Origin: a virus
DNA length: 24,625 nucleotides
Reading direction: 5' to 3' (one strand)
IMG/VR virus record: IMGVR_UViG_3300037488_001934
Coordinates: 1-24,625 of that record
Both the position numbers and the translations under genes were made by a program. Under the pieces are notes generated by a model. It was not told the DNA's origin. It did not search any database and saw only the letters and a list, made by a program, of their open reading frames with translations. This document shows positions 1 to 14,693 of the stretch, piece after piece (the stretch's first letter is position 1; every line of letters begins with the position of its first letter).

Positions 1-3000
1 AACGCTTGATGCTGATCCCAATTAGCTTGCACAAAATCGAAGTCTTCCTCTGTCAGTCTTCCTTGAGCAACTTGGTCTTCGATAAACGCCCACCATTCCG
101 CAGTGTTAACTAAACCTGTTGTAGAGTCTCTTTCTGCCAATTTATAACCAAGCAGAAAATTTTCTAAATTGGACTTGGTACCCGATTGGCTTAGCGCGCC
201 AACGAGGTCATTGCGACCTTCAAAAACAAATGTTGTATTCCCGTTTATCGCTACAGGAACCTTAAAGGTCCACCATGATAGCTTCTCATGGCGCTTAATG
301 TAATCTTTCAGATACACGTTTCTTTCTAGCAGGTAGTCATTAAACCGTTCACGCGTTTCCCTAAATATGTGTTTGGTAAACACGGGGCCGATCTTGCGGG
401 TCCAATGCTCCATGCGCCGCCCCCAAGCTTTAAGGCTTAAGAACCTAAAGCTTAGGCGCTCTTTTTTCGTTGCTAGGCGTCCCTCCAGAGAGGTCGTAGT
501 TGCGCTAGGCATTGCCCGTAACTCAGCGGTCATCTTAGCCACCGCTGCGGCTTTTTCTACTTGCTTAGTGTTATCTGTTAGCTGCTTATCGAGCTTAGCC
601 TCAGTCAATAGTTTCTCGACAATATCGCGCACCATGCGAAAATCATCAACGCTAAGCTCAAGGTAGCTTTGTAGGGTGTTATTATTTGTGGCCCGCAAGA
701 TGTGGGGCATGATCTCTTTGAATACTTCAGGGCGGTATTTTGCAATCTTATCTACGAGCTCCAAAGGTAGCTTTGTGCCCTGCCCCAAGCCAAAAGAACT
801 AAGTATCGCGCGTGCAGCGTTGACGAAATCTAGGTTGTGAGTTTTGTCTAGCACTGCGTCGGCACGCCACACGGACTTAAATTTTTTGAGCGCCTTGGTA
901 ATCTCGGCTTCGACCTTGTTGGCTTCATTCACAAGCGCATATTGCAGCACTTGCTTATGCGCAGCGAGTAGCACATTTTTGGCGTCGGCAGTCTTCAGTG
1001 CGTCTTCTAGTTGCCTACCCGCACGGCGCTCTAGTATGCGTTCACCGGGGGGGCTGATTAGCTTGACCTTGCGTTCGTCAAGCAATCGACGCGCAGTATC
1101 CCGAGCAGCCAGCATCTGTTCACGCACAGGCTTACGAGAGCGAGTTAGGTGGTTAAACTGAGCGGCCAAAAAGCGTTCCCGGGCCTCGGTGCGCAGGGAT
1201 TTCTGAATAGCGGTATCGATCTCTTTTGGGCTACTGAACTCGCTGTAGCGTTCTAGCATGATTTTGTCGGTCTTAGCGTCAACGACAGTATCCAAGCTTG
1301 GGGTGTCTAAAATTGCCCGCAAGAGTTGTTCACCAGTGTTAAAGCCAAACTCTACCGCTACGTCATCGGGATGTTGGCCGTCGGTTTTGCGCGTGTAGGC
1401 TTTTAGAAGTTCCTGCGCTGCGCTATCCTCCTTAAGGATCTCCTGCACGGACGCTGCGTCTAACTTGTGCGGGCCATCTTCTTTTACGACTTTCCCGTCT
1501 ACTACTGATTCACCCTTAGCTAGCCACCGAATTGCGCGGTGAACGGGTTCTTGAGAGACTTCGTTGGCGACGTCTTCGCGCACAGCAGAGCGCACATCTG
1601 CGTGCAGGGCCTGCAATTCTTTTAGCCGCCTGCCCGAGGTGTTTTTAGCCCACGCCATTGCTTTCAGGCTAGCGGACAACAGCTTCTCTTCACTTGTGTC
1701 ATGCACATCTTGCCAGGCCTGCAAGTGAGTGACCCAATCATCGTGCGTTTTGCTTGGGTCTGCCGCAAGAAACGCAGCCTCATCGGTAAATAGCGCAGTT
1801 AAGAACTGAGTTTGCTCGGCGCTTTGGATCTGCTCTTCGGAAGCTAGGAACCGATTAAACAACGCTTGTAATTCTGGCGTGCTGCTTGGTAGGTCACGGC
1901 CAAATAGCTTGCGGTAGTTTTCGTTTAGATTGTCACGTATTGACGTATAGACCGCGCGCATGAATTGCTTCAACCTGCGGAACACACCTTTAAGTTCTTC
2001 GCTGGGAGCAACACCGTCGTATACGTAGTTTTCAAAATTATAGGCTACGGCTTCGTGATGCGGCTCTTGCTCCGCAAAGGGCATACTGTGCCAAGCGGCA
2101 AGCCTTCCTTCCGCAGTGTCGCTCGCAATACCAAACCAGCGCAGCAATATGTCGGCGTCGTTTTTAATGCTCGTGCTAGCGTTCGCTTCGGTTGCAAGTG
2201 CTAGGGTCGAGAGCGTAAAAAAGTGACTGAGCTCATGCAGCACGGTAAATGCGTCTGCACTCTCACCGGTTTTGGGCCCGAATAACACAAGCTCTCGCGT
2301 TGCGATGTTGAAAAAACCTTTCTTGTTCTGAAACAACGCCTGCCCGCCCATGACGGAATCGCGGATTTCGGGGGTGATGGTGAGGGAGTGGATGGCAGCG
2401 TTTGGTTGTTTGTCTCCAAGAATAAAACTTTGGAATGGCCCATCATCTAACTCGGCTTCGTATAGGTGATTTTCAGAAGTTAATGAAATCTCATGGCCGT
2501 ATTTATCAACTCCGAAAATCTCCCCGCCTCTACGCAATACTTCGATTGCGCGCTGCTTAGATTCAAAGCGTTCATTATTTGATGCGTCGTGATTCTGGCC
2601 AAGCTCGCTCATCCCCACCTTCTGCCCGGACTTCTTCACCGCTGGCAGGTTGTTGACGATGTTGCGGAATTCTACGTCGTAGAGCTTCTTCAAGCCTTCG
2701 CCGCCGAGTTTGAGATCTTCGCCTGAAAAGATTGTGCCGCTCTTGGCGTCCATAATCTTTTGAGACATGTCTCTGCCTATTACTTCATCAAGCCGCTTGC
2801 CAATTAGCCCACGGTGGCTGGCGTCGGAAGTGTCAATTATTCCATTATTGTTAACTTCTAGCGTTATTTGTCCATCGCCAGCGGGGACTTGGATAAATAC
2901 GCTGCGCGTCTGCTCGTCTGTTGTCTGATTGACTTTCTGGTGAACTACGATCTGTTCCACCTGCTTACTCAATTCATACCGCTCCGCCTGCTGCTCGCCC

Positions 3001-6000
3001 GTGGTCCAGCCCACCGCACCAAACCCGTTCTCCGCCGCGTAACGCAACACCCACTTGAAAGCAATCTCGTTCCGGTTCTTCTGGAACAGCTCGGGCATCT
3101 TGGCGAACTCGCCGGAATACTTTTTCTCCACCTTGCCTCCAGTCTCCTTGGCGTAGGCGGTCGCTCGTTCAAACGAACCTTCACCTTCAAACGTCTTGCC
3201 GTTTACCTCGTGCCACTTTTCGCCCTGCGGAGACTGCACTTCTTCGAGGAACAGCATCCGCTTGCCGTCTTGCGTGATGCGCTCGTTTAGCCTCAAGCGC
3301 ACAATTGGATCGGCTATGTCGGAGTATTGAGGGTGACCGTCGCGCCATGTCGGGGACCTCTTGTTTTTCAAGAAATTAAACCGGATGTCGTCGCCCATGC
3401 TGACTTCCCCGTACATTCTGTCCTTCTCCGCTATGTGCTCCATCTCCCTTGCTTCTGCGTCGGTTAATATGGTTTCCCTTTTCGGCCCTTTCAGAAACAC
3501 TTCCCGATAGCTGCCCTTGACGGCGCCGGGGAGTTGTAAATTGGAGAATTGGGTTTCGCCCGCTGGTTGAGCTTCTGATTTAGAAAGGCCATCCGCTTCC
3601 GCTGCGATGCGCCGATATCGAGCAACGGCGGGAGCATTTGGTGAGTGCGCCTCAAACTTGTTGGCAAGCTCGGCGTATTGCTTGGCGATGTCGGCCCACC
3701 CTTCCGCTGAACTTGGACGCAACTCAGTCCCAAGCGTGGCTATCATTTCCTGTGAGAGTTGGCCTTCGCCCCCCAGCGTCACAGCCTTCACCACTATCTC
3801 GTTGGCCTTGAGGTAGTCCAAAACCTCCTGCTTCGTGTAGCTCTTGCCGTCCTCCAAATCTTGGACGCCGACCAACTCCATCTCGCCCGGGCTCGCGCCC
3901 AGCTTGCTGCCCTTGATCGTGGCTTTCCACTGCGCGCCAGATGCCTTGTTCTGCTGCGATTGCTCGACTGTGCGACTCAGGCGCGAGTAGAAAGCTGGTT
4001 GCTTTGCCTTTGCATCGGCTGTTTCGGATGTGTCTTCGTCTCCCACCCGAAATAGCAGCCCTGTTTTGGGTGCGCCCGCATTCCTTGCGGCTATGCTTTT
4101 GCGCCTGTCCAGAATTGCGTAGCCTCGATCAGTTTGAACTCCCGTGACATCGGCCCAATCTTTAACTAGAACGGCATCTCCACCGCGTTGAATTTTCTTC
4201 CTTCGCGCTGGAGTCATCAACTTTTCGGGGACAAAGAAAATTCCGCCTCCGCGATTCTCTACGCCCTTCAACAAAGTGATTTTAAGTGCCGCCGATTCTT
4301 CCGGCGTCAGTTTAATCGCTGCAGCCGCAGTTTTTAACTGCTCGTCAGATAGCGTTTTTGAGTCTGCGGCTTCTGGGGTGGCTGCTTCCGGTGTTTGAAC
4401 TTGCGAGATTTCGGTTGCTGGGGCTACGCTTTCACTCATCTGCTCCGCTGTCGCATTAGTCGCGGCTTCGGGCTGAACTTGCGAGATTTCGGTTGCTGGG
4501 GCTACGCTTTCACTCATCTGCTCCGCTGTCGCATTAGTCGCGGCTTCGGGCTGAACTTGCGAAGCCTCAGATTCAGTATTGTCGTAGCGTATGGAAACCC
4601 CGTGTGTTTGCTGCGCTTCGGCTATTGATATTTGCTTCTCTCTCGCAATAAGTGCGATTCTATGGCTGTAGATTAAACCGAGCGTATTTGCGTCTTCTTG
4701 TGTCTGGCCAGATGCAACCAAGGCAGCAGACATATCATTTTCGACCTGCTTGGTTGCGTTAAAAGTATCAAGGTCTTCGGCAGCTGCTTTTTCAAGAAAA
4801 GCAATAGCTTCTTTTACCCGTTCAGGAGCATTTTGGTTTAATACCTCGGCTTCTGCTGCGGTAGTATCACCGGGCGATAACGTCATGTGCGGCTGCAAAG
4901 CAATTTGAAGTTTGCTCCCTGCCATAGGCACCATTTTTTCAATTGGTATTATGACGTAATCGCTATTGTTTTTTTGTTCTTCCAGGTTAGGCACTATCCC
5001 CTGCAATTGTGCTAACGCAAGTTTCTGCTGTTCAGGGTCTGCGCTAAGGCCTTCGATTACCTTTTGCAGATCATCCTTATGAACGTATAAATTAGGAGTC
5101 GTGTTTTTGGCGTTTTCGCGGACAAAACTTTCTGCGGCGTCGGGGTCGTTTGTGCGCAGCGGAAGTGCATTTATTCTTGCCGCCACACCGTTCAAGTAAT
5201 CTTGCGTGGCTTTTGCGTTTTTCACGCTGCGCATATCTCCAATAAAACGGGCGCCGGGGCCAACACCAGCGATCAGTGCCATACCCTGGGCCGTTTTGAT
5301 TGCAATATGCGCTAGTCGCTTGCCAACATCGGGCACTTCTGGGTCTACGCCTTCCGTTGCGCGTCTTGCGTTACCTTCAGCCACGATACTGCTGACCTCT
5401 TGCGTAATTTCCGTAGCGTCTTCGGCTAGCATACCCCTACCCCAACGCTGGGCAAACTTTACGGCGCTGCGGTTAAATGTTGGGCGCACCGTCATCTCAG
5501 CCGCTACGGCAGTAGCTAGCTGGCGTTTAGCTGCTCGCCGGAAAAAGCCACCGATGCCCAGTGTTAATTCGGTAGCAACTGTTTCTAAGACGCCGTTTAC
5601 GGCAGCAACACCGAGGGCATTATACGCCGAAGTTTTAGGGTCAAGTCCAAGCTCAATCGCGTCGGCATAAAAGTTACCCCCTTCGATTAAAGCCGATTGC
5701 GTAAATATGGCGGTTGTTGTTGCGATTGTGGCTCCTAGCGCCGCTCCCACAGGTGTAGCTAGCGCGCCAAGTTCAGCACCGGCTAAGCCCGCGCCTATAA
5801 CTATAGGTATTGTCCCGGACATCTGGCCCAAGATGTTTACAGTGTTGGCTATAAAACCTTCAGGCTCCGGTATCGTATGCAGTTGAGAGTTGAGCCAATT
5901 GAGGTTTGCAAGATCATCGTTGCTGGCGCTTTCACCGCGCAGCTCCATTGTTGCTAATCGCGAGCCTTCATATCCTCGCGTGTTCGTAAGGGCACCTTTG

Positions 6001-6635
6001 GTCCAGGGGTCTTTAAAATAGGTTTTAAAAAAGCTTTCTATACCTGTGAGATCCCGCATGTCATCTACGGCTACTAGTGCATGTTCTTTTTTTTCCAAAA
6101 AGCCATGCGTTATTGGAAATAGCCGTTGAAGTTCTAGCCTGTGTGCTTCTTGTTCGTAAGCCCACTTTTTCGCTTCTTCAGGGTTTGCTTTAACTTGTTC
6201 AGGAGTTAAACCCAACGCTTTCGCTTTTTGCTGAATTTGACCCGCCAAAACAGGGTCTGTTTTGCTTGCTGCTTCAAACGCCAGCATTAGCCGCTTGTTT
6301 GCGGCAAGAGCTTCTTTTTTTGCTTCGGCTTCTATCAGCGCTACGTAGGTGTCGCGAGGTTCTCCAGGGGGCTTTTCGCCTAGTGGTTTTTGTGTCTTTT
6401 GCGGGTCTTGCGGGTCTTGCAGCTCTTGCAGCTCTTGCAGCGGTTGCGTGTCTTGCAGGTCTTGCAGCGGCTGCGTGTCTTGCAGCGGCTGCGTGTCTTG
6501 CAGCGGTTGCGTGTCTTGCAGCGGTTGCGTGTCTTGCAGCGGCTGCGTCTCTTGCGGTGCCGTCAATGCAATGGCATCAGCCTGCTCGGTAAGAATTTCG
6601 GGCTCGGGTGTAATATCGTTTATCGGCGGTAGCAT
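1..6635 (-). CDS. Giant polyvalent internal virion protein with HELSH metallopeptidase domain (3'-truncated, gp16 slot)
   Basis: The frame opens at ATG 6635 and stays open to the left edge, giving at least 2211 codons without a stop, so the C-terminus is missing. It follows gp14-like and gp15-like genes, so it should be ejected into the host like T7 gp16 (inference from position). Visible in order: acidic/Pro-rich N-terminus; Gln-rich QPLQDT repeats (about residues 31-82); Gly/Ala-rich hydrophobic stretch (about 262-330), possibly membrane-inserting; linker with an exact 26-residue duplication (about 695-746); segment with WRDGHPQYSDIADP then FLEEVQS (about 1097-1145); WTTGEQQAERY (about 1210-1220); LGGEG (about 1310); QALFQ followed by HELSH (1467-1471), a zinc HExxH motif; HHEAVAYNFENY (1526-1537), which may carry a third zinc ligand; then a long helical part with HPDDVAVEFGF. 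This succession is typical of phage polyvalent proteins. No methylase, helicase or transglycosylase motif was noticed. The ribosome binding site is weak (GGTGGG about 15 bases upstream). Confidence 0.88.
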   Translation of the reverse strand, partial: MLPPINDITPEPEILTEQADAIALTAPQETQPLQDTQPLQDTQPLQDTQPLQDTQPLQDLQDTQPLQELQELQDPQDPQKTQKPLGEKPPGEPRDTYVALIEAEAKKEALAANKRLMLAFEAASKTDPVLAGQIQQKAKALGLTPEQVKANPEEAKKWAYEQEAHRLELQRLFPITHGFLEKKEHALVAVDDMRDLTGIESFFKTYFKDPWTKGALTNTRGYEGSRLATMELRGESASNDDLANLNWLNSQLHTIPEPEGFIANTVNILGQMSGTIPIVIGAGLAGAELGALATPVGAALGATIATTTAIFTQSALIEGGNFYADAIELGLDPKTSAYNALGVAAVNGVLETVATELTLGIGGFFRRAAKRQLATAVAAEMTVRPTFNRSAVKFAQRWGRGMLAEDATEITQEVSSIVAEGNARRATEGVDPEVPDVGKRLAHIAIKTAQGMALIAGVGPGARFIGDMRSVKNAKATQDYLNGVAARINALPLRTNDPDAAESFVRENAKNTTPNLYVHKDDLQKVIEGLSADPEQQKLALAQLQGIVPNLEEQKNNSDYVIIPIEKMVPMAGSKLQIALQPHMTLSPGDTTAAEAEVLNQNAPERVKEAIAFLEKAAAEDLDTFNATKQVENDMSAALVASGQTQEDANTLGLIYSHRIALIAREKQISIAEAQQTHGVSIRYDNTESEASQVQPEAATNATAEQMSESVAPATEISQVQPEAATNATAEQMSESVAPATEISQVQTPEAATPEAADSKTLSDEQLKTAAAAIKLTPEESAALKITLLKGVENRGGGIFFVPEKLMTPARRKKIQRGGDAVLVKDWADVTGVQTDRGYAILDRRKSIAARNAGAPKTGLLFRVGDEDTSETADAKAKQPAFYSRLSRTVEQSQQNKASGAQWKATIKGSKLGASPGEMELVGVQDLEDGKSYTKQEVLDYLKANEIVVKAVTLGGEGQLSQEMIATLGTELRPSSAEGWADIAKQYAELANKFEAHSPNAPAVARYRRIAAEADGLSKSEAQPAGETQFSNLQLPGAVKGSYREVFLKGPKRETILTDAEAREMEHIAEKDRMYGEVSMGDDIRFNFLKNKRSPTWRDGHPQYSDIADPIVRLRLNERITQDGKRMLFLEEVQSPQGEKWHEVNGKTFEGEGSFERATAYAKETGGKVEKKYSGEFAKMPELFQKNRNEIAFKWVLRYAAENGFGAVGWTTGEQQAERYELSKQVEQIVVHQKVNQTTDEQTRSVFIQVPAGDGQITLEVNNNGIIDTSDASHRGLIGKRLDEVIGRDMSQKIMDAKSGTIFSGEDLKLGGEGLKKLYDVEFRNIVNNLPAVKKSGQKVGMSELGQNHDASNNERFESKQRAIEVLRRGGEIFGVDKYGHEISLTSENHLYEAELDDGPFQSFILGDKQPNAAIHSLTITPEIRDSVMGGQALFQNKKGFFNIATRELVLFGPKTGESADAFTVLHELSHFFTLSTLALATEANASTSIKNDADILLRWFGIASDTAEGRLAAWHSMPFAEQEPHHEAVAYNFENYVYDGVAPSEELKGVFRRLKQFMRAVYTSIRDNLNENYRKLFGRDLPSSTPELQALFNRFLASEEQIQSAEQTQFLTALFTDEAAFLAADPSKTHDDWVTHLQAWQDVHDTSEEKLLSASLKAMAWAKNTSGRRLKELQALHADVRSAVREDVANEVSQEPVHRAIRWLAKGESVVDGKVVKEDGPHKLDAASVQEILKEDSAAQELLKAYTRKTDGQHPDDVAVEFGFNTGEQLLRAILDTPSLDTVVDAKTDKIMLERYSEFSSPKEIDTAIQKSLRTEARERFLAAQFNHLTRSRKPVREQMLAARDTARRLLDERKVKLISPPGERILERRAGRQLEDALKTADAKNVLLAAHKQVLQYALVNEANKVEAEITKALKKFKSVWRADAVLDKTHNLDFVNAARAILSSFGLGQGTKLPLELVDKIAKYRPEVFKEIMPHILRATNNNTLQSYLELSVDDFRMVRDIVEKLLTEAKLDKQLTDNTKQVEKAAAVAKMTAELRAMPSATTTSLEGRLATKKERLSFRFLSLKAWGRRMEHWTRKIGPVFTKHIFRETRERFNDYLLERNVYLKDYIKRHEKLSWWTFKVPVAINGNTTFVFEGRNDLVGALSQSGTKSNLENFLLGYKLAERDSTTGLVNTAEWWAFIEDQVAQGRLTEEDFDFVQANWDQHQA
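4398..4562 (-). repeat. Exact 78-bp tandem duplication plus partial third copy
   Basis: Two perfectly identical 78-bp units lie at 4398-4475 and 4476-4553, followed by nine bases of a third copy (4554-4562). The unit is a multiple of three, so it duplicates 26 residues (read ...ATEISQVQPEAATNATAEQMSESV...) inside the low-complexity linker of the giant protein. Zero divergence suggests a recent duplication or ongoing recombination or slippage. An assembly collapse or expansion cannot be excluded. Confidence 0.97.
6390..6545 (-). repeat. 18-bp minisatellite encoding QPLQDT repeats
   Basis: The codons on the minus strand read four perfect QPLQDT hexapeptides, then degenerate QPLQD-LQDT, QPLQEL-QEL, QDP-QDP and QKT units. 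The DNA period is 18 bp with shorter 9-bp derivatives toward the C-terminal side. It lies at residues about 31-82 of the giant virion protein and keeps frame. The unit is Gln/Pro-rich with alternating leucine, probably an extended or coiled linker; no function can be assigned. Confidence 0.95.
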
Positions 6636-6640
6636 GGCTT

Positions 6641-9445
6641 TTAAAACCCACCCATTTTAGGTTTAACACTGTTGCGATGGGGCTTATCTTCGCCTTTATT
6701 AGGTGGGGCCTGCCATACGGGGCGACGGTTGGCAATCCCGGGGGCCCGTGTCCACGGTTGACCGGCTGCTGGTTTTGGGTTTTTTGCTAAGTATAAAAAG
6801 GCGGCAAGTACTTCCTCCACCGGAACTAGTTCGTCCCGCGACAAGTTAGCAACTTTGGACGTTTGCTCGTCTAAGCTTTGTAGCTGTGCGACGCTATAGA
6901 CACCCCTGTCTGGGCCAAAAGCGGGACCCACGTATGGCACTTGGGGGCGGCCTACTTTAGCGACCACTTCTTTTTCGCTTAAGCCTGTTTCGGCTGCTAC
7001 AGCTGCAAGAGTTAGACCCCCTTGGAATTCGCCAAACACGCCACGGTCTTGGAGTTGATCGGTTAAGCTGTTTTGCAAGTCTTTAACATCCACCTTATCC
7101 GACCCTGTATTTATGGAACGTAACTGGTCAGCAAGGCTCATTTTGGCAATGCTACTCATGGATACTGAGCGGACTTTTATAGCTTTACCGTCTGAGTCTT
7201 GAGCCGCTACTTCTACTACCGGCACGTTTCTAAGCCGCGTGTTAAAACGGTTTGTTAACACTTCATCTTGGCGCGCGTTTAGAGCTTCTGGCGTATCAAA
7301 CTTAGTAGACGGCTTTTCAAGCGGTGCGCCTTGCTCTTTAGCCACTTGATCTATTAATAGTTTTTTAAAAGTTTCTTTTGTGTAACCTTTTCTGGGAATA
7401 ATTACGTCTGTCCCATAACGGGGTGGCCTATCACCATCTCCTAGCTGAGCAACAATTGTAGATTCGGGAAGGCCGGTTACTGTGGCAACTGCCAAAAGGC
7501 TAAAAAAAGTTGTTTTGCTTTCTGTTAATACTTCGTTAGGCATATTTTTTTGTACATAACTAACGGCGTCATTAACTAATTGGTTCTCATTTGCTTGTCG
7601 CCCTAACATTATTACGTTAACGGCATCTTGTACCGTGAAGTTTCTATTTTTTCCTTTTAGCTCTGCTTGGGCGGCTTGCAGCTTTTCATCAGTTATATTT
7701 AGCTTCTCCAAAGATACTATCTCGTTGTTATTTGTAGCGTTGGTTACTACAGCCGCGTTTTCCGCGTCTTTCTTGTCGAGTGGACTCAAGGCCCAGAGGT
7801 TCACCCCACCGCGTGTCAGCGGTGCGGTTTCCATGCGTTTAAGAACTTCAGCGTAGCCTATTCTTTGCCCTGAAGGCAAACGCAAGTCTTGAGCTATTAG
7901 CCGTCTCGCGTTAGCCCGATAAGTGTTTACTCGTCTTTGCGCTTGTTGACGAAGCAATATATTATCCTGTGTATTCCGTAAGCCTGGTATGTCGTCGGCT
8001 GTGGGGTCTATATTTGCAATGCCCACGGCATACATCGACTGGTTTATTGCGTCGTCAACAAGTTTTTGGCCAGCTGCGGCAACCGACGAAGGCTCTCTCC
8101 CCTGCGCTTCTAATATCCTTTCCGACAATAGATTAAGAGTTGAGGGAGTAAAGTTGCTAACATTTTCCAGACGCCACGTTGCGTAATTTAAACCTTCAAG
8201 TTCGGATGGTGATGTATCCCGAAACTCGGCTTCCTTTCTGGGATCATCCGTGAAGTTGCGCTTTTCAGCGTATGTGGCCCAGTTATCAGTCATGTCATAA
8301 GCTAGGCCCCGTTGCCAAAGTTCTGGATTATCACTTTTGAGGAACTCAAAACTGTCGTTAGGATGCTCGTTAAGCCAGCGAGTACCTTCATTGAGGGCAG
8401 CTTCTGCTTGTTTTTGATGCCCTTCTAGTCTTTGCTTAGCGCCAGCTTCAATGCGCTTCAGCGTTGCGTCACGCACTTCAAGATTTATATGAGCTGGATC
8501 ATTGTCAGGTAGATTAAAGCGTCGCTCAACTTCAACAACAGCGTTATCATCTGCTTCAAGTTGAAGTTTATCCTGCAAGTGAAAGTTATCAGAAAACGAA
8601 CTTAGCTTAGTAGGTTCTACTTTTTTCGGTGTGGTCAGTGCATTGGCAAGCCGTTGACTGAAATCGGCGGTATCCTTTATGCTGATCCGCTGTTGCAATT
8701 GTTGTTCAGTATTGGGGTCAAGCTCTTTTGCTTCGCGGGCAGCGTTAAACATTTTAGCTGCCCCAATACTGTCGGTCGTCAGCGCGGCCATTATTCGGGC
8801 TGCATGTCCTTTTGACAAAGCATCCAATATTTTTTCAGCGCGCGTTGCTTCGGGGTCGCCTAACATCCGGCTGGCCTCAGTGATCTGACCAACCATCGCA
8901 CCTTTGCTTTCTTCGCTGCCGGTTGAAACCCAGTCGTTTTGGCGCGCGGTAGCGAGCGAGCTAGTGCGCGAAAGGTTGAATACTAGAGCTTCTCTATTGT
9001 AATGTTGGTCAATGTGGCTTTCAGCTTGCGAAGTTGCAGCGTTAGCTACTTGTGCAAAAGCGTCACGTTGGCGAGTAGTCTCAAGAGTTGCTTCTAGGGA
9101 TTTGCGCAAACTACTCATGCTTTGCAAAGCACCGGTGCGCCCGTTGACTGCATTGTAGCCTTTCTGATTTAGGTAACCGCCCCCTTTTTCGGGGTCTTGT
9201 AATACTCCCCGGTAACCATCTGCAAGAAGACCTGCACGGTCTTTGACTATACCTTCATCAATGTCTTTTTGCGCGCTAGCGAAAAGGCTAAGCCCAGAAT
9301 TCAGTCCCGCTTGCCCCGAGCGCATCGCTTGTTCGTTAATGCCTAAATCAGGCATCGGCAACACGCGGGCTGAGTATTGACTACCAGGGGACGCTGGCGT
9401 ACGTGAAGGATCTTGTGCAACTTGCGGTAGCGGAACGCGAGGCAT
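6641..9445 (-). CDS. Internal virion (ejection) protein, T7 gp15-like
   Basis: A 934-aa, mostly helical, Gln/Ala/Lys-rich protein. The N-terminal third has the layout of podovirus internal core proteins: a Pro-rich start, SLFASAQKDIDEG (about residues 53-65), then GYLNQKGYNAVNGRTG (about 90-105), a segment seen in many gp15-like ejection proteins, followed by long amphipathic helices. It lies between the gp14-like gene and the giant terminal gene, matching the T7 order 14-15-16. Expected role: part of the inner core that is ejected and forms the channel across the cell envelope (family knowledge; not shown here). I see no signal peptide, membrane helix or transglycosylase motif. The ATG at 9445 shares a base with the stop of the previous gene (TAATG), which suggests translational coupling; a GGGGGG tract lies about 7 bases upstream. 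Confidence 0.75.
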   Translation of the reverse strand: MPRVPLPQVAQDPSRTPASPGSQYSARVLPMPDLGINEQAMRSGQAGLNSGLSLFASAQKDIDEGIVKDRAGLLADGYRGVLQDPEKGGGYLNQKGYNAVNGRTGALQSMSSLRKSLEATLETTRQRDAFAQVANAATSQAESHIDQHYNREALVFNLSRTSSLATARQNDWVSTGSEESKGAMVGQITEASRMLGDPEATRAEKILDALSKGHAARIMAALTTDSIGAAKMFNAAREAKELDPNTEQQLQQRISIKDTADFSQRLANALTTPKKVEPTKLSSFSDNFHLQDKLQLEADDNAVVEVERRFNLPDNDPAHINLEVRDATLKRIEAGAKQRLEGHQKQAEAALNEGTRWLNEHPNDSFEFLKSDNPELWQRGLAYDMTDNWATYAEKRNFTDDPRKEAEFRDTSPSELEGLNYATWRLENVSNFTPSTLNLLSERILEAQGREPSSVAAAGQKLVDDAINQSMYAVGIANIDPTADDIPGLRNTQDNILLRQQAQRRVNTYRANARRLIAQDLRLPSGQRIGYAEVLKRMETAPLTRGGVNLWALSPLDKKDAENAAVVTNATNNNEIVSLEKLNITDEKLQAAQAELKGKNRNFTVQDAVNVIMLGRQANENQLVNDAVSYVQKNMPNEVLTESKTTFFSLLAVATVTGLPESTIVAQLGDGDRPPRYGTDVIIPRKGYTKETFKKLLIDQVAKEQGAPLEKPSTKFDTPEALNARQDEVLTNRFNTRLRNVPVVEVAAQDSDGKAIKVRSVSMSSIAKMSLADQLRSINTGSDKVDVKDLQNSLTDQLQDRGVFGEFQGGLTLAAVAAETGLSEKEVVAKVGRPQVPYVGPAFGPDRGVYSVAQLQSLDEQTSKVANLSRDELVPVEEVLAAFLYLAKNPKPAAGQPWTRAPGIANRRPVWQAPPNKGEDKPHRNSVKPKMGGF

Positions 9446-10137
9446 TAGGCACCCCCCATCAATAAGGACCCAGCAATTTGTCCGGCAGAACCATAAAGCG
9501 ACTTCGCTAATTCGCGTCCAGGGCTAATTAGTTTAGCACTTCTGCGCATGTTTCGAGCACTGGCTTCGTTGAGCAACGCACGGCCTTTAAGTTGAGCTCC
9601 ACGCATGCGGGATTGACCTGCGGCTTGCAAAGTGTTTGTTGTTACGGTCAACATATCAATGCGCTTGGATAGCTCAAGACTTGCCTCGGCTTCTGCCGCA
9701 TTGCCAACACCAATCTCAACTCCTGAAGCTGCTGTGCCCGCTTTGAGCATACCAGCTTCTTGTGCATAATTGAGCGAGCGCATGCCTTTGTCAAAACGGC
9801 CTGCTGCAAGAATGCTTTGCGCATCTACTTCAGCCATTTCAGCGTCAACGCGCGATTGCGAACCTTCAAATTCCAGCGTAGAAGCTCGCGAGTTAAGCTC
9901 GTATTGTTGCGTTTTTGCCCCGTAGTAGGCACCAATAGCTTTCTCCGCAGCGCCTGAAGCGGCCATAAAAGCACCAAAAGCAGCGCTGCCCTGAGCACTA
10001 ACGTCGGGCCCCGCAACAGCTGGACCGGAACCAAAACCCATCACGCGACTAGACCCGCCGGTCTGCGCCCAACTGGGCAATACGTAAAACGAATTGGATG
10101 CGCTAGGGTTTTGGCCTTGGCTGGATTGATACGGCAT
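9445..10137 (-). CDS. Internal virion (core) protein, T7 gp14-like
   Basis: A 230-aa protein with an Ala/Gly-rich hydrophobic stretch at about residues 45-72 (ending GAYYGAKTQQYEL), then a charged amphipathic helical central part (about 75-200) with spaced Arg, Ala and Glu, and a second Gly/Ala/Leu-rich tail (YGSAGQIAGSLLMGG). This layout and the AASGVEIGVGNAAEA segment, like 'aaSGv..g.Gs..e.' in virion core proteins, fit the gp14 class. These proteins are thought to form the outer-membrane part of the ejected channel in T7. The gene sits between the tail nozzle and the gp15-like gene, as in T7. It has a perfect AGGAGG ribosome binding site six bases before the ATG. Its stop overlaps the next start by one base. 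Confidence 0.75.
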   Translation of the reverse strand: MPYQSSQGQNPSASNSFYVLPSWAQTGGSSRVMGFGSGPAVAGPDVSAQGSAAFGAFMAASGAAEKAIGAYYGAKTQQYELNSRASTLEFEGSQSRVDAEMAEVDAQSILAAGRFDKGMRSLNYAQEAGMLKAGTAASGVEIGVGNAAEAEASLELSKRIDMLTVTTNTLQAAGQSRMRGAQLKGRALLNEASARNMRRSAKLISPGRELAKSLYGSAGQIAGSLLMGGA

Positions 10138-10139
10138 AA

Positions 10140-13100
10140 CTAGCCTCCTATTTCAGTTTCGAGCACGATGGCAGTGACTTCAACGGGCAACGGTTCAACA
10201 ACTTGCAGCGTTGCTTGACCATCGTAGGACCAAGAACCAGTGGCAGTAATTTCTACCATTCCGGTCATAACATCAGTGACTTCTCCGTGTGGGTCACTTG
10301 GCCACAGGGTCCCTCCGAGAGAACCACCTAAAAATGCAGCCGAGTCTTTAACGCGAACGTAGACGTGTGCAAGGTTTTTTTGGCGACTGTGCCCTGCCGC
10401 GTCAATTTGCATAGCGTGGGGTAGCGTATCAATCTGAGCAACAAAAGGTAAACCCGCGTGCGCTATTGTGCTTGCCGCGGTAGTGAGCGTGACCTCACCG
10501 TTAGCATCAACGATCTTTTGCGGTTGCACTTTGCCATCCACAAGCAGGGAGACCGTTTTGCCGATTAAGTGGCGCAAACCTTTGACCTTTGTAGCTGGCC
10601 CCGTAAAGGTCACTCCCGCGTCCACTTGGAAGCTATTTTGTCTTGAAGTGAACACTTGAGACGCAAAACGCTCAACACGCAGCACCCCGTCACGTTTTAC
10701 GACAACGTAAATTCGGTCTTCATCACCTTCCGTAATCACGGCAACGGATTCAAACGTGCCTGCGGTAGAATGTTGATGCCAGGCACCGACTTGCTCTTCC
10801 GGCACATAGGTGAGTCCAAACAGTTGCCCGTTGTTGCTAACGGTCCAAATTACGGGTTGGGGTGCTCTAGTCCAGGCCATGTCAACAAGGCGACGGTTTT
10901 CAAATAAGTGCGCTGCACGCAAGGATAGATTGCCTGGATAAAAGCTTTGCGCATCGGACCTAAAAGCAATCTCAAAAAGATGACCTCCACGTTCAGAGGC
11001 AAAAATTAGGTTGCTATTGATTAGCACCGGGTGCGCAAAGTTACTACCAACGTAACTTTGCGCGCGCACCGAAACAGACAACGGTGAGATTATGCCATTC
11101 CCCGTAGGGGTGACGCGATACTCGGCAGCATCGGTCAGCAAAAGCATTGACTCTAGCGAGATGATGTGGCGAATGGTGCTGCGAGAACGCGAGGCTACCG
11201 CTAGCTTGATACGATCCGATTCTAGCACTGGCAGCGAAAAAGAAAGGTCGCTTTCGGTGCCTGTTTTAGTAAACCAACAAGACTGCGTTTCTTCGGGGGT
11301 GCCTGCCCAGACACGACGCTGGTCGTGGTGGCCTACGGCGCTTGGTTTCGTCAGCGACGAATCAAGTATTGGTGGGGAGATACCAAGGTCCGGGTCAATG
11401 TTGTCATCAATAAACTTAGGCTCGGCGCACTGCCCAATGTAGCCAAACAAACCTGCAAGTTTGCGATACACGCGGTAGCGTTCGGCTCCAACTACGGCAG
11501 CCCAAGACAGCGTATTCTTTGAACCGTTTACGTCGAGGTTGCATAAGGCAAACCCTACGCTACTGGCAAGACTTTCGTTGTTATCTGCGGTTACCGATGT
11601 GACAACGTAAAAATTGTCTCGGTCCCCTGAAAGCTTAGCTTGCCGCACACGCCCGTTTGGAAGACTAGTTGAAGCTAGTGTTGTCCCCGTAATAAGGGCG
11701 CCGCTTTCTGGATCTTGCAGGGTAAAATCAAGAGGAGGTAATGCGAGTCTAACAATGTATTGGCCTGAAAGAAGTCCAGGCTCGCAGCCTGAGATATAGA
11801 CTTCCGTAACCCCTGACACGTACATGTGCGCGCTAACCGTTGAGACAGTAAATCCGCTACCGGTTTGGGCTAAACCCGTGATTTTAAGCCCTTCACCGTT
11901 AAACACGGTGATGTTGCCGTCTCCAAATACTGGGGGTTGCAACACAGGCTTAATAACAACCGTATTTAGCACCCACTGAGTGGCATCACTACGCCGAAGC
12001 TCGCTTGGAGAGTAGTTCTGATGGGCTAACGATACAATGTCATTCGACTGATCGTAGGTAAGGTCCATCAAATCCGCATTGGCAAACGCATGCGGGCACT
12101 CGTAAACCGCGTTAACAAGGGCGTAATTAGTGGGCGCACTGCTGTTGCTAAGAGCCAGAGCCGGACCAAACGGCGTTGCCGAAACTTTAAAAGTTCGCGT
12201 GGTTGTAGTGCTTGCGGCGTCAAGCACGAAGTAAACCGTGCCTGAAACTAATTCCGTAGGTAGCGTGCTTGCGGTAGATGAAAACGTAACCGGGTCACCA
12301 TGATGCAAAGTTAAGTTGGTTAGTTCGGCCTCCGTACCTGTACACGTTATTGAATTAGAACTAAAAGTTACCGTTAATACATTGCCTGGCTCTTTATACC
12401 AATAAGTGGAATTACTGATGCCAGGTATACTTTGGGCTTCTGTAGATTCTAGGTTTGCGATGGGCGGCACTACGCAATAATAGACACTATTGTTTATACT
12501 TGTAGTGGTGGCTTCGTGTAATACAAGGTCGCCTTTGTTAACACTGTGGTAAAGGGTTGTGAGGCCGGAGGCTCGGCCCGGATCCAGCGGTAAAAAAGAA
12601 GATTTTAAGTTGCTTAGGGCAAGAGCTTGAGTGCTAGCAATGTGGAAACTGTAGTCATCTATCTTTACCGCGTAGAATACTTTACCCGCATTACTTATTT
12701 CCACTCCAATGCTGGGGATCGGTGGTGTGTATGCAAGAATAGGTGACCGAGTGAGTGTAGGATAAGATAACTCAGAGTTTTTAAATACTACAGGGTCTCC
12801 CGTAACTAGTTGGTGCGGGTTTGCCGGATTAGATAACGCAGAATACGTTTGCAATATTGTTGGCTCGTCAATAAACGTAACCGGTGTAGGGCTACTAAAT
12901 ACGCTCGTAGATCCTGAGGCAACAGTTCCAAGTAGGCCAGTTAGAGCAGTGCCTCTAATTGCGTCAGCGGCAGAAGAAGCAATCTTAAATTGGGTAATAT
13001 TGTTGCTGCTCGGTATTGCAAAATAAACGCCTCCAGCTAATCGGGTAGCCCCAATAAAGCATTCCGTCCCGGAACTTGGGGTTACGTTTTTGTGCGTGAA

Positions 13101-14693
13101 GGTTATCTGTTCTCCCGTAATTAGGGCGTGGGGGCTTGTAGTTTCAAACTGGAGAGGCTGGCCAGAACCGGTAGGTAGGGTAATACTGTTAACAACAACC
13201 GATTTTTTATACACAAGAACGCTGGTAACAGGAAGCCAGCCCGTTGACATAGCGCAAGAATTCGGAGCAAGCCTGATAATTTTAACGGTTGCCCCAGCAC
13301 TACTAAAAGTAACTACTGCACCGTTAATCGGTGTTTTACTGCAAGTTATGCTAGTAGCAGTGGAAGATAGCACATAGAAAACGTCGCTAACGAGGACAGT
13401 GACACCGTCAACAACGGGAAAAGTTGCGGCTGTAAAATTAAAGGCTGTGCCAATTAACAGATCGGGAGGTATTGCAGCCGATATCGTCGATGTCGATGTC
13501 GATATAGTAACAGAGAGTTCTTTGCATATAGTAATGCCTGCCGAAATAGCATTTGAAAAAGATAAAGCCGTACCGCTAGCAGCGCGGGCACAACTAAAAC
13601 CTGTAGTGCTGCTGCCGCTGCTTAATACATAGTAAACATCGTAAATGGTAAGAGCCGGACTTGATGTTATTGAAGGTAGCACAGTGCCCGTCACATTAAA
13701 TTTAAAGGCTGTGCCCGCGGCTAGAGCCGTAGGTAACGAAACTCCAAAGTTAAGAGTGTTGCTGCTTGCAGTTGACGTTATATTGATAACGCCAATAACT
13801 TGGAAATCACTAGCTTGAGCAATAAAAATGTTTGTGGGGAATGTATTAGCTTCACTTACAACCGGAGACGTTAATGCGGTAGCGGCCTCGGAAGCAAAAG
13901 TTATGGTAGTTGGACTTGTCACTACACTGACGTAATAAAGTCTGTCTACAGCAGGCGTAACATTGGAAAAAACTGTTGCTGCAAGAACGCCAGAAAAAGT
14001 AAAGGCCTCTCCCGCTGATAATCCATGCGCCCCCGAAGTTGTTAAAGTTACAACCGTAGAAACGCTAGTGTTTGTAATATTCGGTCTGGAAAAAGTGACC
14101 GACTGAGCTTTGGTGGGGCTTACTACAGCTTTAAATTGCTGACCGCTTATAGAGATTAGAGTGGCAGCGCTAACATTGGCGGGTTTATATTGAAGTCCAT
14201 CCCCCAAAAACGAAGCATCGCTGCAAATTTGCGTAAAGGCTATCGATTGACCGTTCTTAATTGAATGCTGGTTAGTGGTAGCAAACGTGTCAAGTAAACT
14301 AGTACTAGCGTTCGTATATATCGTTTGCCTAGGTATATATCTTAAAGTTGGCTTTGCATAGAGCACAGGTGCGCCTTGGGAATAGCACCGTAGCCAACCT
14401 GTTAACGAAGACAAAGTTTCTGTTGCGGGTTTATTCCCAAGCGCGAGTACGAGTTCTTGGTTAGTTCCAAATTTGAAGGGGATTACGCGCACCTTACCTA
14501 GGGGGCTAGTATTGGGCGTAGTGTCAACGTGCTGTGTGCCTGGTCGCGTGCGTGCGCTCCCCTGCGGGCGCACAATAAAGTTGGAGCACTTTGCGACTGC
14601 GGCCTGGACCCGCGGATCATTTGCCCGACCAAACATTGTGGCCACAATCTCACCGCTGACCAGCGATTGCTGCAACGTGCGTTGGGTCGGCAT
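10140..14693 (-). CDS. Tail nozzle protein (gp12-like / tail tubular protein B) expanded with repeated beta modules
   Basis: A 1517-aa protein, roughly twice the usual size for this family. Residues 1-90 have the usual N-terminus: QQSLVSGEIVATMFGR, then a CSNFIVRPQGSARTRPGT segment and a short beta unit with FKFGTNQELVLALG. The canonical sequence resumes only at about residue 868 (HAFANADLMDLTYDQSND, then HQNYSPSELRR) and continues through RYRVYRK (about 1072-1078), FIDDNIDPD (1094-1102), HHDQRRVWAG (1122-1131) and a propeller-like C-terminal half. These are recognisable landmarks of podovirus tail nozzle/stabilisation proteins. Between them, about 205-865 is Ser/Thr/Val-rich and built of degenerate repeats (separate entry). 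Expected role: the distal tail tube below the gp11-like adaptor, with the extra modules projecting outward (inference). The gene lies three bases after the fusion gene's stop; its ribosome binding site is weak. Confidence 0.87.
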   Translation of the reverse strand: MPTQRTLQQSLVSGEIVATMFGRANDPRVQAAVAKCSNFIVRPQGSARTRPGTQHVDTTPNTSPLGKVRVIPFKFGTNQELVLALGNKPATETLSSLTGWLRCYSQGAPVLYAKPTLRYIPRQTIYTNASTSLLDTFATTNQHSIKNGQSIAFTQICSDASFLGDGLQYKPANVSAATLISISGQQFKAVVSPTKAQSVTFSRPNITNTSVSTVVTLTTSGAHGLSAGEAFTFSGVLAATVFSNVTPAVDRLYYVSVVTSPTTITFASEAATALTSPVVSEANTFPTNIFIAQASDFQVIGVINITSTASSNTLNFGVSLPTALAAGTAFKFNVTGTVLPSITSSPALTIYDVYYVLSSGSSTTGFSCARAASGTALSFSNAISAGITICKELSVTISTSTSTISAAIPPDLLIGTAFNFTAATFPVVDGVTVLVSDVFYVLSSTATSITCSKTPINGAVVTFSSAGATVKIIRLAPNSCAMSTGWLPVTSVLVYKKSVVVNSITLPTGSGQPLQFETTSPHALITGEQITFTHKNVTPSSGTECFIGATRLAGGVYFAIPSSNNITQFKIASSAADAIRGTALTGLLGTVASGSTSVFSSPTPVTFIDEPTILQTYSALSNPANPHQLVTGDPVVFKNSELSYPTLTRSPILAYTPPIPSIGVEISNAGKVFYAVKIDDYSFHIASTQALALSNLKSSFLPLDPGRASGLTTLYHSVNKGDLVLHEATTTSINNSVYYCVVPPIANLESTEAQSIPGISNSTYWYKEPGNVLTVTFSSNSITCTGTEAELTNLTLHHGDPVTFSSTASTLPTELVSGTVYFVLDAASTTTTRTFKVSATPFGPALALSNSSAPTNYALVNAVYECPHAFANADLMDLTYDQSNDIVSLAHQNYSPSELRRSDATQWVLNTVVIKPVLQPPVFGDGNITVFNGEGLKITGLAQTGSGFTVSTVSAHMYVSGVTEVYISGCEPGLLSGQYIVRLALPPLDFTLQDPESGALITGTTLASTSLPNGRVRQAKLSGDRDNFYVVTSVTADNNESLASSVGFALCNLDVNGSKNTLSWAAVVGAERYRVYRKLAGLFGYIGQCAEPKFIDDNIDPDLGISPPILDSSLTKPSAVGHHDQRRVWAGTPEETQSCWFTKTGTESDLSFSLPVLESDRIKLAVASRSRSTIRHIISLESMLLLTDAAEYRVTPTGNGIISPLSVSVRAQSYVGSNFAHPVLINSNLIFASERGGHLFEIAFRSDAQSFYPGNLSLRAAHLFENRRLVDMAWTRAPQPVIWTVSNNGQLFGLTYVPEEQVGAWHQHSTAGTFESVAVITEGDEDRIYVVVKRDGVLRVERFASQVFTSRQNSFQVDAGVTFTGPATKVKGLRHLIGKTVSLLVDGKVQPQKIVDANGEVTLTTAASTIAHAGLPFVAQIDTLPHAMQIDAAGHSRQKNLAHVYVRVKDSAAFLGGSLGGTLWPSDPHGEVTDVMTGMVEITATGSWSYDGQATLQVVEPLPVEVTAIVLETEIGG
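10144..10149 (-). promoter_or_regulatory. Strong ribosome binding site (AGGAGG) of gp14-like gene
   Basis: On the minus strand AGGAGG stands six bases upstream of the ATG at 10137, immediately before the upstream gene's TAG stop. It fixes the start of the gp14-like gene and is the best Shine-Dalgarno match in the window. Confidence 0.85.
12099..14081 (-). repeat. Degenerate protein-level beta-module repeats inside the tail nozzle
   Basis: Between residues about 205 and 865 of the tail nozzle a pattern recurs: a short beta start, 'L-x-x-G-x-x-F-x-F' (GEAFTFSG 228-235, GTAFKFNVTG 327-336, GTAFNFTA 415-422, GEQITFTH 527-534, GDPVVFKN 632-639, GDPVTFSS 799-806), a gap of about 15-40 residues, then 'YYV' or equivalent (LYYVSV 252, VYYVLSS 353, VFYVLSS 438, VYFAIPSS 556, VFYAVKID 672, VYFVLDAA 820), then 'TFxxA' with a small Ala/Ser-rich end. 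At least six copies are visible. The DNA is not obviously repetitive, so the duplication is old. The pattern resembles segments of phage tail proteins labelled 'E1 FCCH-like'; that match is an inference. Confidence 0.72.

Follow-up and report, generated by a model that had tools for sequence, protein, structure and literature searches.

The giant gene and its neighbours

The window, that is the whole stretch of DNA analysed here, is the entire virus record IMGVR_UViG_3300037488_001934, 24,625 bases long. Its left end cuts a giant gene of the polyvalent type on the minus strand, whose open reading frame (3..6635, −) begins with an ATG and runs for 2,211 aa to the contig edge with no stop codon, leaving the C-terminus of the product outside the sequence; the predicted full length is ~2,735 aa. 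This gene is the last of the entry-protein cluster, and only 5 bases separate its start from the end of a gp15-like gene (6641..9445, −), which in turn follows a gp14-like gene (9445..10137, −). The gp14-like product is a homologue of Bbp12 of Bordetella phage BPP-1 and matches PHROG 418, a family annotated as 'internal virion protein' (E 8e-7), while the gp15-like product is a homologue of BPP-1 Bbp11 (E 6e-75, iterated profile). Upstream of the gp14-like gene lie the gp12-like and gp11-like tail genes and those of the major head protein, a protease and the terminase. The order bbp12-bbp11-bbp10 is kept here and in the relatives whose gene order was inspected. A sequence-only reading of this DNA had placed the giant gene after gp14- and gp15-like genes, in the slot of T7 gene 16, and the open frame together with the two homologues upstream bears this out.

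The gp12-like tail protein (10140..14693, −; 1,517 aa) exceeds its homologues in length by ~500-750 aa; these match it at either end, which indicates a large internal insertion. In the gp11-like tail protein (14697..17669, −; 990 aa) the tail domain takes up only aa 762-989. The first 760 aa form an extension, which among the loci compared is shared by contig L097 alone, and aa 601-746 within it weakly match a family of sialic-acid acetylesterases (SASA in Pfam, E 0.016).

All the landmarks from which the giant product had been called polyvalent are present in the 2,211-aa frame: WTTGEQQAERY at aa 1210, LGGEG at aa 954 and again at aa 1310, QALFQ at aa 1432, HELSH at aa 1467-1471 and HPDDVAVEFGF at aa 1755. 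They are, nevertheless, split among modules, as WTTGEQQAERY, the second LGGEG and QALFQ belong to one exchangeable domain, and HELSH and HPDDVAVEFGF to a conserved core. The polyvalent character was also supported by the search for LPD profiles that had been proposed, which returned an LPD22 domain (6024..6278, −; aa 120-204; PF18834, E 7e-7) at 29.9 bits, above the Pfam cut-off of 28.6. LPD22 is the sole Pfam domain recognised in the giant protein, and it was found in 14 of 15 family members scanned.

Conserved modules around a variable slot

By sequence comparison, the giant protein is a member of the large and already known Bbp10 / PHROG 9880 family, its aa 1458-2208 matching PHROG 9880 (function not assigned there) with an E value of 4e-132. 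Identity over the core reaches 34% with ctQRb9, 32% with Limnohabitans phage DC33 and 28% with Bbp10 of BPP-1, the last over aa 1430-2097. Besides these three and zth2-2, isolate relatives include phages of Caulobacter, Xanthomonas, Vibrio, Pseudomonas and Acinetobacter, and the isolate genes occupy the same slot wherever gene order was inspected. The core is encoded at 480 candidate loci in viral contigs, most of them fetched by a scan with the LHExxHF pattern, and in 72 genome contigs, mostly of Pseudomonadota; the relatives' genomes are mostly those of Gram-negative bacteria. Scans of viral contigs with a single window sequence, be it the whole protein or the core only, gave no match, and alignments were needed.

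Pairwise comparison revealed two shared parts, an N module (aa 73-643) and the core (aa 1458-2211), whereas the middle part between them has a counterpart in none of ctQRb9, DC33 and BPP-1. The order of N module, variable slot and core is the same in all 66 proteins having both modules (57 distinct by length), and the slot of these proteins measures from 89 to 2,015 aa, with a median of 1,201. In the window protein, low-complexity (QPLQDT)n repeats detected by a tandem-repeat search (6399..6555, −; ~aa 27-79) lie near the N-terminus. The N module with LPD22 (4707..6419, −) is conserved in ctQRb9 (blastp E 1e-38) and also in BPP-1. It contains a hydrophobic segment (5754..5813, −; aa 275-294) which might insert into a membrane; with a Kyte-Doolittle value of 1.62 over 19 residues it is weak, as are the transmembrane segments of the giant protein in general. 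A perfect 78-bp tandem repeat (4396..4562, −; 26 aa x 2.1, ~aa 692-747) is a probable flexible linker between the N module and the cargo. Its copies, each encoding the 26-aa linker unit, are 100% identical, which suggests recent duplication.

The core (3..2264, −; aa 1458-2211 and beyond) is mostly helical in a model of aa 1436-2211 (pLDDT 80.8, pTM 0.54). Solved structures gave no meaningful match to profiles of the giant protein, the core or the zincin-like segment; the best structure row, an m4D2 chain (E 0.0015), fell off the HExxH columns and was taken as chance. In 46 relatives the median distance from HExxH to the end of the protein is 1,269 aa; in the window protein it amounts to 745 aa, so that ~520 aa should be missing from the latter. 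Complete relatives continue for ~520-535 aa past the point where the window ends, and in the tails of six of them no Pfam domain was found in the region matching the missing C-terminus, though some hydrophobic segments lie near the end. Judging by these relatives, the absent part should hold no known effector domain, which makes the earlier suggestion of more effectors at the C-terminus unlikely.

The giant protein had also been contrasted with a gp16 bearing a transglycosylase, and this distinction stands. Pfam and PHROG detected no transglycosylase or other muralytic domain in it, nor did Pfam in the gp15-like protein. T7 gp16 shares with the window protein the slot after gp14- and gp15-like genes, but it bears a transglycosylase itself, at its N-terminus, and no sequence match between the two was seen. 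Lack of a muralytic domain is normal for a giant protein of the Bbp10 family, since in this family it is the gp15-like gene that encodes such a domain, if there is one: Bbp11 has an SLT domain at aa 325-406, and its ctQRb9 homologue has GH108 in the corresponding place. The gp15-like homologues of the window, L097 and DC33 have no muralytic domain visible to Pfam. Of the sequence typical of the Bbp11 family, the window's gp15-like protein retains the N-terminal 450 aa but no domain of the SLT or GH108 type. Lysozyme domains are known to be swapped between proteins of the gp15 and gp16 types (PMC8954989).

The exchangeable WTTG domain

The slot of the window protein holds what we call the WTTG domain (2328..4001, −; aa 879-1436), defined by a profile family and a structure model. 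In an alignment of 37 members, the WTTGEQQAERY motif (2976..3008, −; aa 1210-1220) is conserved at T1211 (35/37), G1213 (36/37), Q1216 and R1219 (34/37 each) and Y1220 (30/37). The second LGGEG (2694..2708, −; aa 1310-1314) is followed by Y1319-D1320, and in this region G1314 and D1320 are kept in 36 of the 37 members and Y1319 in all. The domain ends with GQALFQ (2328..2345, −; aa 1431-1436). A GxxxFQ motif located 36-60 aa before HExxH was present in 11 of 60 proteins, every one with the WTTG cargo. We considered GxPLFQ as a cleavage site for the HExxH domain and rejected it: the motif occurs there only with this cargo, and the consensus of the WTTG family ends with GxPxF even in proteins devoid of the core.

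No Pfam family was common to the 37 aligned members and no acetyltransferase model matched them; for lack of a Pfam GNAT match the domain is called here GNAT-like and is not filed in a known GNAT family. Its AlphaFold2 model, built with the 37 sequences, reached a pLDDT of 81.3 and a pTM of 0.75. When this model was compared with known folds by VIA-align 2, proteins of the GNAT superfamily made up 49 of the 50 rows listed, and at least 19 chains had a Z of 8 or more; the best match was the C-terminal domain of ICL2 (Z 9.8, rmsd 3.2, 134 residues). An ADP-ribosyltransferase-like fold, considered before, was dropped after this search. Foldseek returned no PDB match under E 0.001, though acetyltransferases recur among its results, and the GNAT assignment thus rests on the VIA Z values. 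The modelled fold matches GNAT acetyltransferases, and the cargo looks like an acetyltransferase; its activity as such is putative.

A profile search found the WTTG domain, complete or in part, in 50 ORFs among the loci. In contig L016 (7548-13014) it and the core are distributed among three separate ORFs, either an interrupted gene or assembly errors. In a viral library, the domain gave matches in further large proteins of phages, and the annotation of some of these reads polyvalent or ART-PolyVal-like. On the tree, the window's domain falls into a fully supported group of 10, half of which are on a Bbp10-type carrier and the other 5 in other giant proteins; the label of carrier or other backbone changes six times over the tree, at least two of these changes being forced by starred branches. 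In L097, the contig closest overall, the neighbouring tail genes are the same, and the carrier has the core but not the WTTG domain. The grouping of the domain on mixed backbones and the L097 carrier lacking it indicate movement between proteins, and hence, on sequence evidence, the WTTG domain has been exchanged between giant proteins.

The slot of other family members contains ART-PolyVal, PBECR5 or DUF7178, and full-length scans of members also produced a GGDEF and an acetyltransferase match. In Bbp10 of BPP-1 the slot contains a domain (aa ~592-762) whose identity with stretches of DarB-like antirestriction proteins, found in unrelated phages of Sinorhizobium, Agrobacterium, Pseudomonas and Burkholderia, reaches 51%. 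It is the WTTG domain, aa 879-1436, and not HELSH, that is the true cargo, or effector-like part, of the window protein.

The HExxH segment and the role of the giant protein

The zincin-like segment (1836..2318, −; ~aa 1440-1600) was located through aligned relatives and corresponds to residues 700-1000 of Bbp10, which were filed in 2013 as a zincin, being a seed of the CLCA_X family (PMC3650047). A HExxH would be expected 0.06 times at the composition of the giant protein and was observed once, as HELSH (2223..2237, −), which aligns with HExxH in every relative examined. H1467, E1468, H1471, E1528, P1544, F1552 and Y1563 are invariant in the 47 aligned members and E1535 is kept in 46, the H and E counts being partly selected by the LHExxHF search pattern. 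Among proteins found without this pattern, HExxH occurred in 13 of 13 and was followed by HExxA..[FI][EN]xY, scored as a simple pattern, in 11. E1528 (2052..2054, −), in an HExxA on a second helix, is the likely third zinc ligand. In agreement with the earlier supposition that HELSH lies in a helix, the core model places it in a confidently predicted one (model residues 27-45) and the conserved Glu in another (85-105), with a local pLDDT of ~90. A fold search with the core model listed no zincin; the strands expected before the HELSH helix in a three-stranded zincin sheet would fall at the N-terminal edge of the model, which is of low confidence and poorly covered, many alignment rows having been cut there.

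Both HExxH and the downstream Glu are kept with long and short slots, even with a slot of only 89 aa. Since neither a change of cargo nor its near absence removes the segment, a carrier role is favoured for it; by its conservation it counts as a component of the carrier and not as an effector peculiar to this phage. Zinc binding and proteolysis by this segment are putative.

Several known systems may be compared with this layout. Bbp10 occupies the same gene slot and has an N module with an LPD22-like region, the HExxH core and a similar C-terminal helical part; it differs in its length of 2,052 aa and in having the domain shared with DarB-like antirestriction proteins in place of WTTG. The Bbp10 seed of CLCA_X aligns with the HELSH region of the window, whereas in the accessible part of that paper (PMC3650047) no carrier-and-cargo layout is described and this phage does not appear. 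The feature is real and well conserved, and its new parts are the cargo family and the explicit layout of carrier and slot. Like the polyvalent proteins of Iyer et al. 2017 (PMC5512222), the window protein is very large and multi-domain, adjoins virion genes, and combines an LPD domain with a zincin-like site and enzyme domains; two biochemical domains are predicted in it, the GNAT-like fold and the HExxH segment. The main text of that survey names two GNAT families and mentions neither Bbp10 nor Bordetella; the WTTG domain has no Pfam model and might be one of these GNAT families.

The likeness in plan to N4 virion RNA polymerase, gp50, a giant virion protein of a podovirus, is clear. As described in the accessible part of PMC12633501, gp50 begins with an N domain that probably spans a membrane, after which come a low-complexity linker of 100 aa, the enzyme, a HExxH segment (in the C1 domain, with no protease function reported there) and a large helical end. 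The order of modules in the window protein, with its low-complexity repeats at ~aa 27-79 and 692-747, is identical, and in both cases the gene is the last of three ejection genes. The distance from HExxH to the C-terminus is 1,273 aa in N4 (1,227-1,309 in N4-like proteins), as compared with the Bbp10-family median given above. The cargo of gp50 is, on the other hand, an RNA polymerase, a domain for which Pfam and PHROG gave no match in the window protein. Profile comparison with the N4 C-terminus was collinear and not significant (E 0.09-0.23, against 0.70-0.97 for reversed or shuffled decoys), and in a segment-versus-segment matrix P was 0.03-0.07, with single decoy segments reaching better values; homology is thus unproven by profile comparison. 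It is conceivable, if doubtful, that Bbp10-type proteins and N4 polymerase share one injectable carrier, made of a membrane N module, a linker, a swappable enzyme, HExxH and ~1,270 aa to the end, into whose slot this phage would load a new family of acetyltransferases with the GNAT fold.

The sequence-only reading suggested that a protease is injected with the DNA, perhaps to disarm host proteins; the HELSH domain would then cleave them as the phage enters. The intact HExxH and Glu would agree with this, as would the proposal of Iyer et al. (PMC5512222) of self-processing or host attack for zincin-like domains, in which host targeting is among the possible roles. A host-specific effector should, however, be gained, lost and swapped like the slot, whereas this segment is a constant part of the core, retained whatever the cargo and even when there is hardly any; disarming of host proteins by a protease gains no support over a generic carrier role, and we regard it as rather unlikely. 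If, on the contrary, the core HExxH were not proteolytic and the giant protein were purely structural, an internal core or tunnel with incidental enzyme-like domains, the mostly helical core model and the HExxH of the N4 C1 domain would be readily accommodated, but neither the invariance of H, E, H and E nor the swapping of identifiable enzyme domains within the slot would be expected, and such a role seems unlikely. Records of some relatives name the protein 'lysin' or 'lysis protein', and Bbp10 was called a lysin in a paper (PMC9239159); with no muralytic domain detected in the giant protein, and with such domains encoded by the gp15-like gene and by endolysin genes of their own, an autolysin or endolysin is highly improbable.

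Taking the architecture, its conservation, the exchange of the cargo and the resemblance of its fold observed here, we consider it reasonably probable that the phage is a BPP-1-like podovirus whose third ejection protein, at the gp16 position, is the giant protein, and that the latter acts as a conserved carrier of one exchangeable enzyme. The carrier would consist of the N-terminal LPD22 and hydrophobic module and of the C-terminal HExxH segment with ~1,100 aa of helices, and would bring the enzyme, along with the DNA, into the host cell. In the window protein the cargo would be the divergent domain with the GNAT fold, whose probable function during entry is to acetylate some macromolecule, either the host's or an incoming one. 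For the HExxH segment, a task within the carrier itself, in processing of the giant chain, release of the cargo or a structural role, is more probable than a host target peculiar to this phage. Gene position and analogues suggest that the protein most likely travels inside the virus particle and is injected from it. Packaging is supported by analogy only, in that the 4,515-aa DarB-like gp69 of podovirus JC1 was detected in the virion by mass spectrometry with 51 unique peptides (PMC9144972). We found no virion proteomics of a Bbp10-family protein in the literature, and the accessible part of the BPP-1 head paper identifies only two main capsid proteins.

Emphasis should shift from a protease to the exchangeable domain of GNAT-like fold. 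Should the carrier reading be true, hundreds of podoviruses would possess a natural means of putting an enzyme into a Gram-negative cell at the start of infection, and new entry-phase effectors could be sought in the slot between the conserved modules. One could then also test whether the HExxH of polyvalent giant proteins is directed against the protein itself or against the host.
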